The notes beneath the pieces were generated by a model that was not told where the DNA came from, made no database searches, and saw nothing but the letters and a program-made list of their open reading frames with translations. The translations under genes and the position numbers were made by a program. Of a DNA stretch of 64,000 nucleotides, positions 56,896 through 62,191 are shown piece by piece (position 1 is the first letter of the stretch; every line of letters starts with the position of its first letter). The stretch comes from Subtercola boreus (lineage in GTDB: Bacteria > Actinomycetota > Actinomycetes > Actinomycetales > Microbacteriaceae), in NCBI RefSeq assembly GCF_003399645.1, contig NZ_NBXD01000002.1:124001-188000 (forward strand). Reading direction: 5' to 3'.

Positions 56896-56901
56896 TAGAG
56901 T
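56896..56901 (+). promoter_or_regulatory. Predicted -10 element of the DAHP synthase leader
   Basis: TAGAGT, 6 bases before ATG 56908, so the leader peptide would be translated from a leaderless mRNA. Confidence 0.55.
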
Positions 56902-56907
56902 GTGAGC

Positions 56908-56964
56908 ATGCACAGTCGTTGGTATGCGTATTTCGGGTCGGCTCTGGGAGGGCCGACGCTGTAA
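56908..56964 (+). CDS. Aromatic-rich leader peptide of the DAHP synthase gene
   Basis: An 18-residue frame, MHSRWYAYFGSALGGPTL, with Trp, Tyr, Tyr and Phe within five residues. These three amino acids are the end products of the pathway started by the DAHP synthase gene 105 bases downstream. It would let translating ribosomes stall when any of them is scarce, the logic of trp-type attenuation. The gene position, lone promoter and mutually exclusive hairpins behind it support the call. Confidence 0.75.
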   Translation: MHSRWYAYFGSALGGPTL

Positions 56965-57069
56965 GCGCGCACCACCCCCCAGAGCCACCCGGCAGAGACA
57001 ACGGTCTCTGCCTTTCGCCTTTAAATGGCGGGTCGGCCGGGTGGTCGCTCGCCGGAACGGAACCGTTTC
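56936..57069 (+). promoter_or_regulatory. Attenuator structures in the DAHP synthase leader
   Basis: Competing pairings are visible. GGCTCTGGG (56940-56948) pairs with CCCAGAGCC (56978-56986). GTCGGC (56937-56942) pairs with GCCGAC (56952-56957). GGCAGAGAC (56991-56999) pairs with GTCTCTGCC (57004-57012), followed by TTTCGCCTTT, a terminator-like hairpin. CCACCCGGC (56985-56993) pairs with GCCGGGTGG (57036-57044) and competes with both neighbours. The first two share bases and overlap the peptide, so ribosome position decides between them. Confidence 0.65.
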
Positions 57070-58179
57070 ATGAGTACCACCGGCACTGCCGCATCCACCG
57101 AAGACCTGCGGGTCACCCGTTTCGCGCCGCTGCCCACCCCGGCCGACCTGCGCACCGAACTGCCGCTCTCGGCCGCGCAGGCCGAGCTCGTGTCCTCGAC
57201 GCGCGAGCAGGTCGAGGCGATCGTCGCCGGGCGCGATCCGCGGCTTCTGCTCGTGGTCGGGCCCTGCTCGGTGCACGACCCCGAAGCGGCGCTGGAGTAC
57301 GCCCGGCGCCTCGCACCGCTCGCGCACGAAGTGAGGGAGTCGGTGCTCGTCGTGATGCGGGTGTACTTCGAGAAGCCCCGATCCACGGGCGGATGGAAGG
57401 GGCTCATCAACGATCCGTACCTGAACGGTACGCACCGGGTGGCCGACGGATTGCGCATCGCCAGGCTGCTGCTCCGCGACATCCTGAGCCTCGGACTGCC
57501 GGTGGGATGCGAGTTCCTCGAGCCCACGAGCCCGCAGTACATCGCCGATGCCGTGAGCTGGGGCGCGATCGGTGCGCGCACGACCGAGAGCCAGATCCAC
57601 CGGCAGCTCGCGTCGGGGCTCTCGATGCCGGTCGGCTTCAAGAATGCAACCGACGGTGACGTGCAGGTGGCGGTCGACGGATGCGTGTCGTCGGCCCAGC
57701 CGCACGTCTTCTTCGGAATCGATGAGCACGGTTTGGCGGCTGCGGTCGAGACGACCGGCAATGCGGCGGGGCACGTCATCCTCCGCGGCGGGCGCCAGGG
57801 GCCGAACTCGTCGTCGGAGTCGGTCGCAGCCGCAGCCGCCCTGCTCGCGCGGGCCGGCCTCGAGCCACGGATGATCGTCGACGCGAGCCACGCCAACAGC
57901 GGCAAGGACCACGTGCGCCAGGTGGCGGTCGTGCGTGAGCTGGCCGCACAACTGGAGTCGGGCGATCCGATCTCGGGAATCATGATGGAGAGCTTTCTCG
58001 TCGGCGGGGCGCAGAAGCTCGATGCACAGGCGCTCGGGTCGCTCATGTTCGGGCAGAGCGCGACGGATGCGTGCATCGACTGGGCCACGACCGAGGTTCT
58101 CGTGCGGGAGCTCGCGGTGGCGGCATCCGCTCGCCTGCCCGTACCCCTCCCCCTGCCCCTGACCGTGCCCGCCTCCTGA
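57070..58179 (+). CDS. aroG: 3-deoxy-7-phosphoheptulonate (DAHP) synthase, class I
   Basis: Condenses phosphoenolpyruvate and erythrose-4-phosphate, the first step of aromatic amino acid synthesis. Class I signatures: LLVVGPCSVHDPEAALEYARRL, EKPRSTGGWKGLINDP, GARTTESQIHRQLASGLS, NAAGHVILRGGRQGPN and the DASHANSGKDH metal region. 369 residues, typical of AroF/G/H. ATG 57070 matches the family; 15 extra codons upstream lie in the attenuator. Feedback by Phe, Tyr or Trp cannot be told, but the leader senses all three. Confidence 0.94.
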   Translation: MSTTGTAASTEDLRVTRFAPLPTPADLRTELPLSAAQAELVSSTREQVEAIVAGRDPRLLLVVGPCSVHDPEAALEYARRLAPLAHEVRESVLVVMRVYFEKPRSTGGWKGLINDPYLNGTHRVADGLRIARLLLRDILSLGLPVGCEFLEPTSPQYIADAVSWGAIGARTTESQIHRQLASGLSMPVGFKNATDGDVQVAVDGCVSSAQPHVFFGIDEHGLAAAVETTGNAAGHVILRGGRQGPNSSSESVAAAAALLARAGLEPRMIVDASHANSGKDHVRQVAVVRELAAQLESGDPISGIMMESFLVGGAQKLDAQALGSLMFGQSATDACIDWATTEVLVRELAVAASARLPVPLPLPLTVPAS

Positions 58180-59332: not shown

Positions 59333-60425
59333 CAGGGCATGGTCGAGAAGGTACTTCCGAACGGCTCGGTCCGCGAGGCCCACGGCGACGAAGCGGTCGG
59401 GGGTGCCGACGGGGCGGTAGCGGCGCACCCAGGCGGAGTGGGCGTAGCGGCAGCGGTGTGGCCCGATGCGGTGGGCGGCGCCTATCGTGGCGGCGATCGC
59501 AGCGCCGACCGCAGCGCCGATCGTGGTGAGTTCGCGGGGCTCGGGCCTGAGGTTGTCGCGCTCGTGCGGCGGTGGCTCGACGAGGGCCCGCAAGCCGAGA
59601 CATCCGCGGCCCGACTGGCGACCGTGCTCCGTGACCCCCGGGGGCTCGAGTTCACGACGGAGTTCGTCGATGGGGTCGTGCGTCCCGAAGACAGCGTCGT
59701 CGCTGCGAAGAACCTCGAGCGGCTCGCTGCCCTCAGACCGGAGTTTCTGCCACGGAGCCTCCGAACGGCCATCCGTGTCGCCAGTTCTGTCGGTGAAGCG
59801 CTGCCGTGGGCGGTCGTCCCCACGTCCAGACGCGTGCTCCGACGGATGACCGGTCACCTCATCGCCGACGCCACGCCGTCCAAGCTCGGCCAGACGATCG
59901 CCGAGCTCCGTGCCGACGGATCGCGCGTCGACCTCGACCTCGTGGGCCCGGCAGTGCTGGGGAACTCCGGGGCCGCACGGCGCCTGCGCGGGATCTGCGA
60001 ACTCCTCGCCCGCGACGATGTCGACCGTGTGTCGCTCAGGGTGTCGTCTGTGGCGTCCGGCCTCTCGCTGTGGGCGTTCGACGAGACGGTCGAGCGGGTC
60101 GCCGAGTCACTCGTTCCGCTCTTCGAGCTGGCCCTGCCCCGGGCATCCGGTGCCGGCGGACTGGTCGGCTGGTCGAAACTCGTCACCCTCGTCATCCAGA
60201 CGCCCCGTGATGCCGAGCTGACGGTCGCCGTGCTGCAGAACATCCTCGCTCGACCGAAGTTCGCTGCACTCGAGGCCGGAATCGAGCTTCCGGCCTCTCT
60301 TCCCGGAGCTTTCGGCGTGCTGCAGGGGGTGCAGGCGTGGGCTGCGGCCCGCGTGGAGAAGGGGAATGCGGCGGTGCGGGTACGGCTTGTCGAGGGCGAC
60401 CGCCCGGCGGAACAGCGAGATGCTG

Positions 60426-60520
60426 CAGAACAGCGAGAGGCTGCGGAACTGCGAGAGGCTGCGGAACTGCGAGAGGCTGCGGAACTGCGAGAGGCTGCGG
60501 AACTGCGAGAGGCTGCGGAG
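60426..60520. repeat. 18-bp tandem repeats in the PutA-like gene
   Basis: About five units of GAACTGCGAGAGGCTGCG encode repeated ELREAA hexapeptides between the two catalytic modules. Two diverged units precede them (CAGAACAGCGAGAGGCTG). Confidence 0.9.
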
Positions 60521-60790
60521 CGGGGCGATGCGGCGGCGGGGCGCGAGGCGGGGGAGCGGGGCGATGCGGCGGCCAGGCGCGATGACGCGCTCGGCGGCCC
60601 GATCGGGGGCGACGCGAATTACCTGAGCCTGTTGGAATGGGCGCTGCGGCCGGAGCACCTGCGGGCTGTACACCTCGGGGTGGCGACACGAAACCTCTTC
60701 CACAGTGCTTTTGCATGGCTGCTGGCCGAGCAGCGCGGGGTGGTGACCGGTGGGGCGGGTATCCGCGATACGGCCGGTACCGCGGATACT

Positions 60791-60890
60791 GGAGCATCCG
60801 CAGCATCCGCAGCATCCGCGGCATCCGCGGCATCCGCGGCACCCGCACCCACACCCGCACCCGCACCCGCATCCGCAGCGCCCGTCGGCG
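60791..60890. repeat. GCATCCGCA and CCCGCA microrepeats in the PutA-like gene
   Basis: Five copies of a 9-bp unit near GCATCCGCA, then CACCCGCA-type 6-bp units, encode an Ala/Ser/Pro stretch just before the second domain. Confidence 0.9.
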
Positions 60891-62188
60891 ACCGCGAGGC
60901 CGCGGCACACCTCGAGTTCGAGGTGCCGCCCGGCGCAGACGGTGCGCAGGTCGACGCGATGCGGCACCAGGTGGGTCCGGTGGTGCTCACCGTTCCGATC
61001 GTGCAGCCTCACGACATTTCGTTCGTGACCGCGCGGCTGAGTGCGCTGCTCCGTGCGGCTGCCCGCGACGACAACTTCCTGGCCGATGAACGGGTCTTCG
61101 ACCGTGAGCGAGCTCGGTTCGTCGCCTCCCTCGCTGGGCTGAGCGCCGGCTGGAACCGTCCTGAGCCGCTCGATGAAGGCGCCGGAGCATCGACGTCCAC
61201 ACCCGACAACAGCCCGATGTCACCCGCTCCTCGGGAGTGGGCCAGGCGCATCCTCGCCCGGGTCGCGTCATCGCAGGATGGCGCACAGACGATAGCGACC
61301 GCCCGCGTCATCGATGCCGCAGACCTCGATGGGCTCGTCGCCTGGGCGGCCGCGGCCGGAACCCGGTGGGGCAGCGAACCCACCTCTGCTCGCGTGTCAG
61401 CCCTCCACCGCGCAGCGGTATCGATCGAGGCGAACCGCGACCGTCTGATTGTGGTCTCGGCGGGCGAGACCGGAACCACGCTCGCAGAGGGAGACTCCGA
61501 GGTGAGTGCGGCAATCGCGCTCGCGGCCGAGTACGCACGGCGTGCTCCCGAACTCGAGTCGATCGAGGGCGCCCGCTTCGAGCCGGCGGGGCTGGTCGCC
61601 GTACTGCCGTCATGGCGATCCCCTCTGGCAGATGCCGCAGCGGGAGTGTTCTCGGCCCTCGCGGCCGGTTCGGCGGTGATCCTCTCGCCGGCGCCGGAGT
61701 CGGCGCGCTCCGCCGCGGTCCTGGCCGAGGCGCTCTGGGAGTCCGGCATCCCGCGCGACCTCCTCGTACTGGTCGATCTCGCCGGCGCGGCGGCGTCTGA
61801 GCTCGCTGGGGCGGATCTCGATGGGGCGGATCTCGCTGGGGCGTCCGATCTCGCCGGCGCGGCGGCGCCTGATCTCGCGGGCGCGCCCGCCGGGCCGGGC
61901 TCCGGCACCCTCACCCATCACCTCATCACCGATCCCCGGGTCGCCCGCGTTGTCGTGAGCGCGTCGCCGACGATCGCAGCCCGCTACCACTCCTGGCGCC
62001 CCGATCCGTCGCTCATCGTGCACGCGGATGGCGGCCCGAACTCCTTCATCGTGACGCCCAGCGCCGACATCGACCTCGCCGTGGCCGATATCGTCGCCAG
62101 CGCTTTCGACCGCGCGGGGCAGCGCAGCACGGCAGCGAGCCTTGTCATCCTCGTCGGGTCGGTCGCCACGTCTCAGCGCTTCGTTGCA

Positions 62189-62191
62189 TAA
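62189..62191 (+). other. In-frame TAA in the PutA-like gene
   Basis: The codon TAA stands where PutA relatives have Gln or a similar residue (...SVATSQRFVA*LADAVTAL). The frame is otherwise intact on both sides, so a single C-to-T change (CAA to TAA) would explain it. Confidence 0.85.

Follow-up and report, generated by a model that had tools for sequence, protein, structure and literature searches.

A probable attenuation leader with tryptophan, tyrosine and phenylalanine codons upstream of type I DAHP synthase in Subtercola boreus and other Actinobacteria

The window, the whole 64,000-nucleotide stretch of Subtercola boreus DNA analysed here, contains a gene for DAHP synthetase I that is preceded by a short leader open reading frame with codons for all three aromatic amino acids. 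The start of the enzyme was placed at 57070 and not at an in-frame ATG at 57025, because close relatives start there; the leader ORF ends 105 nt upstream of this position. A type II DAHP synthase is also encoded in the genome, on another contig, and the enzyme behind the leader is therefore a second isozyme. The leader ORF and its gene have the following features:

56896-56901, + strand: -10 hexamer TAGAGT (from the sequence; TANNNT lies 6-8 nt from an in-frame start in 142/142 leaders)
56908-56964, + strand: leader ORF of 18 codons, MHSRWYAYFGSALGGPTL, with ATG at 56908 and stop codon at 56962-56964 (from the sequence; conserved in relatives)
56920-56934, + strand: control codons TGG TAT GCG TAT TTC (from the sequence), encoding W5 (56920), Y6 (56923), A7, Y8 (56929) and F9 (56932)
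57070-58179, + strand: type I DAHP synthase (Pfam PF00793, E 8.9e-84; aroFGH model TIGR00034 passed over its cut-off)

A preliminary description of this DNA had reported a peptide in front of DAHP synthase, and its peptide, coordinates and gene all agreed with the sequence check. Its proposal that one leader peptide holds all three end products also agreed with the codons present. The Trp-Tyr-Tyr-Phe that it gave omits an Ala between the two Tyr (W-Y-A-Y-F). An aromatic cluster is not unique by itself, since six ORFs with W, Y and F within 6 codons, the leader ORF included, occur among the ATG/GTG ORFs of 10-45 codons on both strands of the 64 kb. The case for the leader rests on position and conservation and not on the cluster itself. 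Elsewhere in the window, a PutA-like protein (59339-62191; Pro_dh and Aldedh matches) contains a run of REAAEL repeats near 60350-60600.

Of 229 DAHP synthase genes, 160 had an upstream aromatic cluster in a loose ORF test, compared with 15 in shuffled sequences and 18 on the other strand; the leader ORF is therefore not a chance occurrence. We kept 142 of these leaders and removed 18 by name (11 from outside Actinobacteria, of which Limnohabitans and four Xanthomonadaceae resemble genuine leaders, and 7 from Actinobacteria in which the ORF is unrelated), using a list of 22 ids, 4 of which had no ORF-test match. Conditional on this name filter, Trp, Tyr and Phe were all present in 130/142 leaders, within 6 codons in 126. 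Eight additional loci were found by model R1 alone (L090, L162, L168, L175, L176, L178, L199 and L209), none of which shows all three residues, giving 130/150. One locus outside the 142 (L299 in G497) has W, Y and F. The aromatic residues are kept while their order and codons vary (WYAYF, WYWRF, WFTY, YWRF, YFWF). A pattern, TGGTAYGCNTAYTTYGRG, had a match in 7/398 genomes, the match in G167 being locus L107, and L137 carries a frameshift behind the control codons.

Within the family, 22 of 24 loci had the leader by the ORF test and 23 with model R1, a count that omits two gene fragments of G079 (L105, L106). The preliminary description had proposed to compare upstream regions of relatives; the peptide and the hairpins both proved to be conserved there, and the hairpins covary. 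Among 71 order loci, defined as lying outside f4 and absent from the family set, the leader preceded 64 by the ORF test and 69 with R1; the two remaining loci (L142, L144) are extra copies in G663, which has three type I DAHP synthase genes with a leader only before the third copy, L143. In the class, 32 of 50 loci had the leader by the ORF test and 34 with R1, and all 16 others belong to f32. No leader was present before the 5 loci fetched for the f4 sample. Among 80 named loci, 34 were actinobacterial by title, and 25 of these carried the leader, including members of Mycobacterium, Gordonia, Dietzia, Streptomyces, Arthrobacter, Rhodococcus, Nocardia and Amycolatopsis; no leader was found at named actinobacterial loci L002, L014, L018, L023, L029, L040, L042 and L048, and that of L013 is broken. 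In L013, from a Streptosporangiaceae MAG, the leader stop reads TTA versus TGA in relatives, such that the stop is lost and the frame continues. Type I enzymes without a leader are thus those of L093, L142, L144, 16/16 f32 class loci, 5/5 f4 loci and 9/34 named loci (L013 counted). Type I DAHP synthase itself occurs in only 5/12 genomes of the genus and 25/398 of the family. Judging from these occurrences, the leader usually accompanies the enzyme where it is found in Actinobacteria.

The hexamer TAGAGT ends 6 nt upstream of the leader ATG. Over the 142 leaders, the spacing between TANNNT and the start was 6 nt (49 leaders), 7 nt (88) or 8 nt (5). When every in-frame ATG/GTG start up to 75 nt upstream was admitted, such a motif stood 6-8 nt before a start in all 142 leaders versus 1.75/142 at shifted control positions. 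Because the predicted -10 spacing is fixed to this extent, a leaderless start, with transcription beginning at the A of the leader ATG, is likely; the preliminary description had suspected as much. In the accessible text of PMC8079986, S. lividans promoters carry a TAnnnT motif and several amino acid leader peptides of this organism are transcribed leaderless.

Codon usage in the leaders is skewed. Tyr is encoded by TAT 198 times and by TAC 4 times, and Phe by TTT 117 times and TTC 40 times, in counts that are not independent since the 142 leaders are related. The five ORFs around the leader, DAHP synthase included, have TAT 5, TAC 28, TTT 7 and TTC 57. Pairing of the control codons (O, below) or slower decoding may be reasons for the TAT/TTT preference.

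The transcript of the window could form several hairpins between the control codons and the enzyme, and the leader is more stably folded than every one of 200 shuffled sequences (z -3.74). The arms are as follows:

56920-56928, + strand: O5, the control-codon strand able to pair with O3 (complementarity by eye; cognate above swapped partners, 0.64)
56937-56948, + strand: arm a (GTCGGCTCTGGG), within the ORF (helix a:b)
56952-56957, + strand: arm a' (GCCGAC), pairing with the start of a (8-pair a:a', 3 covarying pairs in 58 leaders)
56966-56974, + strand: O3 (CGCGCACCA), 3' of the stop codon (cognate versus swapped comparison of O)
56978-56986, + strand: arm b (CCCAGAGCC), partner of a (8/13 a:b pairs change on both sides)
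56985-56992, + strand: 5' arm of helix D (CCACCCGG) (b:d coevolution over the family, 0.67 and 0.69)
56991-57012, + strand: hairpin T, GGCAGAGAC-AACG-GTCTCTGCC, terminator-like (8/8 modelled pairs change on both sides in 75 rows)
57013-57022, + strand: tail TTTCGCCTTT behind T, a weak U-tract (from the sequence and a terminator scan)
57016-57030, + strand: hairpin E, CGCC (57016-57019) with GGCG (57027-57030) (2/4 pairs change on both sides)
57037-57044, + strand: 3' arm of helix D (CCGGGTGG) (b:d coevolution)
57048-57053, + strand: 3' arm of hairpin F (CTCGCC), possible partner GGCGGG at 57027-57032 (8-pair F, 3 covarying pairs in 58 leaders)

Pairings a:a' and a:b are mutually exclusive because they have strand a in common, and a:b and b:d compete for b. 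Hairpin T has no strand in common with a:a' or a:b and overlaps the D arm by 2 nt. The preliminary description had counted at least four arms that exclude each other, one of them resembling a terminator; the exclusions around a and b hold, and that of T is not supported, as T evolves independently and no competing partner was found for either of its arms.

Structure tests were based on the 106 leaders in which T and the b core were detected (102 once duplicates were removed); the 36 leaders dropped include the Rhodococcus/Nocardia type. An unguided scan of 58 aligned leaders ranked T first (10 pairs, 7 covarying) and a:b next (14 pairs, 6 covarying), followed by F, a 4-pair TTGGT/ACAGG match and a:a' with 3 covarying pairs each. 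RNAalifold missed T on the first alignment because T stood there in two registers. After realignment with R1, 96.7% of cells in 75 distinct rows were paired, compared with 42-49% in slid controls, and 18/25 pairs changed on both sides (16/21 for a:b and T combined), with 192 both-side-changed cells, a value reached in 0/500 shuffles; this alignment, A3, is biased towards the modelled structure, to which it was fitted, and it includes the source rows of R1. In an alignment-free comparison, pairing was stronger between cognate than between swapped arms in T (0.94), a:b (0.87), b:d (0.67 and 0.69 in two runs) and O (0.64), compared with 0.40-0.50 for six other pairings; swapped pairs were restricted to rows below 60% identity, and relatedness partly remains. 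An E-like 4-bp hairpin was present in 83/102 leaders, a count made without a control. Sequence comparison supports helices B (a:b), T and E and, more weakly, D (b:d) and O.

Nucleotide conservation is strong around CGTTGGTAT, which could point to an RNA structure recognised by a protein or ligand and to an ORF that is there only by coincidence; that TAT makes up 198/202 Tyr codons also suggests that the RNA itself may be under some of the constraint. We consider this explanation very improbable, since the aromatic residues are kept despite changing order and codons, the start and -10 spacing are fixed, the leader residues match the downstream gene (see below) and no Rfam family matches. Rfam covariance models detected only three tRNAs in the window and nothing over the gathering score in the leader region, where the best match reached 16.4 bits versus 35.8 needed and lay on the other strand.

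The leader shares two traits with trp-type attenuators: an ORF with end-product codons 5' of a biosynthetic gene and mutually exclusive hairpins with conserved pairing. An attenuation switch that senses aminoacyl-tRNAs for all three products at DAHP synthase is the best explanation of these observations, and from sequence comparison and folding models we regard it as probable. The 18-codon peptide would be translated as soon as the mRNA begins. Shortage of charged Trp, Tyr or Phe tRNA would stall the ribosome on W-Y-A-Y-F, just 5' of arm a; the stalled ribosome would keep the control codons out of the combined hairpin O+A, allowing a to pair with b (helix B), and DAHP synthase would be expressed. 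If all three are plentiful, the ribosome would move on and leave, a would be captured by a' and O, and the freed b would pair with downstream d, giving a closed form around T and E with lowered expression. Control of the committed step by all three products could in this way rest with one leader. We infer that the ribosome stalls, which state is on and which is off, and what the output is (either termination at T or closure of the DAHP synthase ribosome site). Helix B was read as the expressed state partly because arm b in Rhodococcus/Nocardia-type leaders resembles an arm of the downstream hairpin and because the Xanthomonadaceae segment CCGCTGGCGG, which stands behind the aromatic codons, can base-pair with the 5' side of a hairpin that has a good U-tract (both by eye). 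In YFWF-type leaders (L020, L022, L030, L044, L059), the anatomy differs: arm b itself forms part of the hairpin that follows the ORF, and a U-tract is absent (by eye).

Folding under different ribosome positions fits the proposed attenuation switch in part. As means over 32 leaders, a ribosome on the Trp codon changed the expected pairs of B from 8.8 to 12.4 and those of D from 2.3 to 0.28, and with the ribosome at the stop codon B had 6.3. When the ribosome stalls on the last aromatic codon it covers a, with the opposite effect (B 3.0, D 5.2); Phe sensing is therefore not predicted by the folding model, which accounts better for stalls at Trp and the first Tyr. In the window alone, B had 8.99 pairs without a ribosome and with one on W5, 8.9 on Y6, 6.2 on Y8, 2.7 on F9 and 3.3 at the stop codon, and D was near zero in every state.

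The output step may take either of two forms, which correspond to two rival readings. In trp-type transcription attenuation, an antiterminator made on stalling would take an arm of T, which would otherwise end transcription. The hairpin T is conserved, five or more T in a row stand behind it in 13/14 chorismate-mutase-type leaders (see below), and aroR of Corynebacterium glutamicum is described as attenuation in the accessible part of PMC11802643. This form nevertheless appears rather unlikely. No upstream segment paired with either arm of T (t5, t3) clearly beyond swapped partners, and a search of the 102 distinct leaders in which T was detected gave no antiterminator sharing a strand of T. 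Candidates for t5 and t3 were rejected, the cognate pairing being at most about 0.65 kcal/mol better than swapped ones (t5 with the a region, -6.47 versus -5.87 kcal/mol), as was O3 (CTGACC) with t5 (GGGCAG), since a CTGACC-like motif near the stop occurs in 26/102 leaders and is absent from the window. In addition, pairing of t5 with upstream segments before t3 exists was 0.24 on stalling versus 0.54, opposite to antitermination, whereas E. coli trpL, the sole positive control, showed stall-induced capture (0.33 and 0.64 versus 0.06). Only this measure was used for antitermination; equilibrium folding was dropped as a test of T because T forms in every state but does likewise in E. coli trpL. 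Finally, the tail in the window, TTTCGCCTTT, has only 4 T in its first 8 nucleotides, group means of this count behind T are 3.3-4.4, and a terminator scan of the window (at least 5 T in 8) listed nothing.

In translational attenuation, the B/D switch would open or close the ribosome site of DAHP synthase via F, and T would serve mainly in a three-way junction closed by D. This form, too, appears less likely than not, if slightly more likely than the first. It is consistent with the coevolution of b and d, with the frequent E-like hairpin, with the 3 covarying pairs of F and with the Rhodococcus/Nocardia-type b, which resembles, by eye, one side of a downstream hairpin that lacks a U-tract; moreover, the accessible text of PMC7356990 calls aroR a translational regulatory leader peptide. 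On the other hand, coevolution of F (0.57) and of the start-region pairing (0.59) is weak relative to controls (0.41-0.49), and the start region barely changes between states: its unpaired fraction was 0.40-0.50 across 32 leaders, highest on the last-codon stall, and 0.34 throughout in the window, which did not respond.

Residues of the leaders vary with the gene behind them. We observed W+Y+F before DAHP synthase, Y and/or F before DAHPS-like/chorismate-mutase proteins and Tyr alone before one tyrosyl-tRNA synthetase; this match, like the ORF and the fixed promoter spacing, is evident from the compared sequences. R1 was searched against 249 genomes of the family, 158 of the class and 41 others, with some overlap between the sets. 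In f32, 15 leaders with Y and/or F (L275, L277, L281, L284, L286 and L288-L297; that is, L281 and 14 of 17 loci read by residue pattern, the other 3 giving none) precede a protein related to the one at L278; W is present in 1/15, behind the cluster, and nearly all have a strong U-tract behind T. Two of the f32 downstream proteins were tested; both exceeded the Pfam cut-offs for DAHP_synth_1, in a match spanning only about 85 residues, and for chorismate mutase type II, and both were far below the cut-offs of the NCBIfam models of the bifunctional enzyme. The Tyr leader, VIAPASTYRPALARAGSA, lies in G050 (L256, 1517-1633), with one Tyr, no W or F and TACGCT 7 nt before a GTG; the gene behind it matches tyrS (TIGR00234, 256.7 bits, cut-off 113.8). 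This leader is known from one genome, the only one of its genus examined, at an R1 E-value of 1e-4. Other R1 matches were in G026 (E 0.001), in G123, where the second match is a contig end, and in G141 (E 0.006), in which inspection found no leader. These sequences would fit one old leaderless actinobacterial RNA switch with a programmable aminoacyl-tRNA set (W+Y+F, Y/F or Y) and a B/D switch around a three-way junction in which no antiterminator captures an arm of a terminator, an idea that we offer with considerable reserve. Outside Actinobacteria, four Xanthomonadaceae loci (L057, L066, L067, L073) carry upstream of DAHP synthase an aromatic leader that reads FYFWYYGF or nearly so and continues with P.PLAEEG; together with its hairpin, CCGCCAGCG..CTGGCGG, and the TTTTTT behind it, this resembles a classical attenuator.

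The primary description of aroR in Corynebacterium glutamicum is reportedly that of Neshat et al. 2014. AroG of this organism is a type II enzyme. In the available text of PMC11802643, AroG is called dominant over AroF. The preliminary description was aware of trp-type attenuators and of no published family with this exact form; aroR, a Phe-Tyr-Phe leader before aroF, had already been reported (PMC4046766, PMC11802643, accessible parts). The leader in the window is most likely, to judge from its sequence, a feedback switch akin in kind to aroR: both are aromatic leader peptides before a DAHP synthase gene, that of C. glutamicum being described as attenuation (same sources). The two differ in that aroR has Phe-Tyr-Phe and the window has W-Y-A-Y-F with Trp, a comparison at the level of the peptide, and the accessible text of a review states that aroR responds to limitation of Phe and not of Tyr (PMC11802643).

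Corynebacterium and Streptomyces trpL likewise have a control-codon leader peptide followed by hairpins, and S. lividans trpL1 and trpL2 yield leaderless transcripts (PMC8079986); in the parts of the sources available, however, these leaders have Trp only, stand before trp operons or trpS, and are described with a poly-U terminator and an antiterminator (PMC1262725, PMC8079986). In E. coli trpL the control codons also stand directly before competing arms, but its stall-induced capture of the terminator 5' arm was not seen in the DAHP synthase leaders. Actinobacterial ilv/leu leaders are similar as leader peptides, several of them leaderless and often with an unclear output, and differ in having branched-chain residues and other genes (PMC1262725, PMC8079986, PMC5784534, accessible text). 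The available portion of a 2005 comparative study gives no conserved RNA structures before Phe/Tyr operons of Actinobacteria (PMC1262725). The search of the accessible open literature, which did return aroR, gave no report of the wider family, the inclusion of Trp, the constant -10 spacing or the B/D anatomy.

With no antiterminator visible, one must ask by what mechanism leaderless attenuators of Actinobacteria work. Since leaders built on a common scaffold carry residues that match their genes, simple codon swaps could test what governs stalling and output. If the proposed attenuation switch is correct, the entry step of aromatic amino acid biosynthesis in many Actinobacteria would be under the control of one sensor of all three products.
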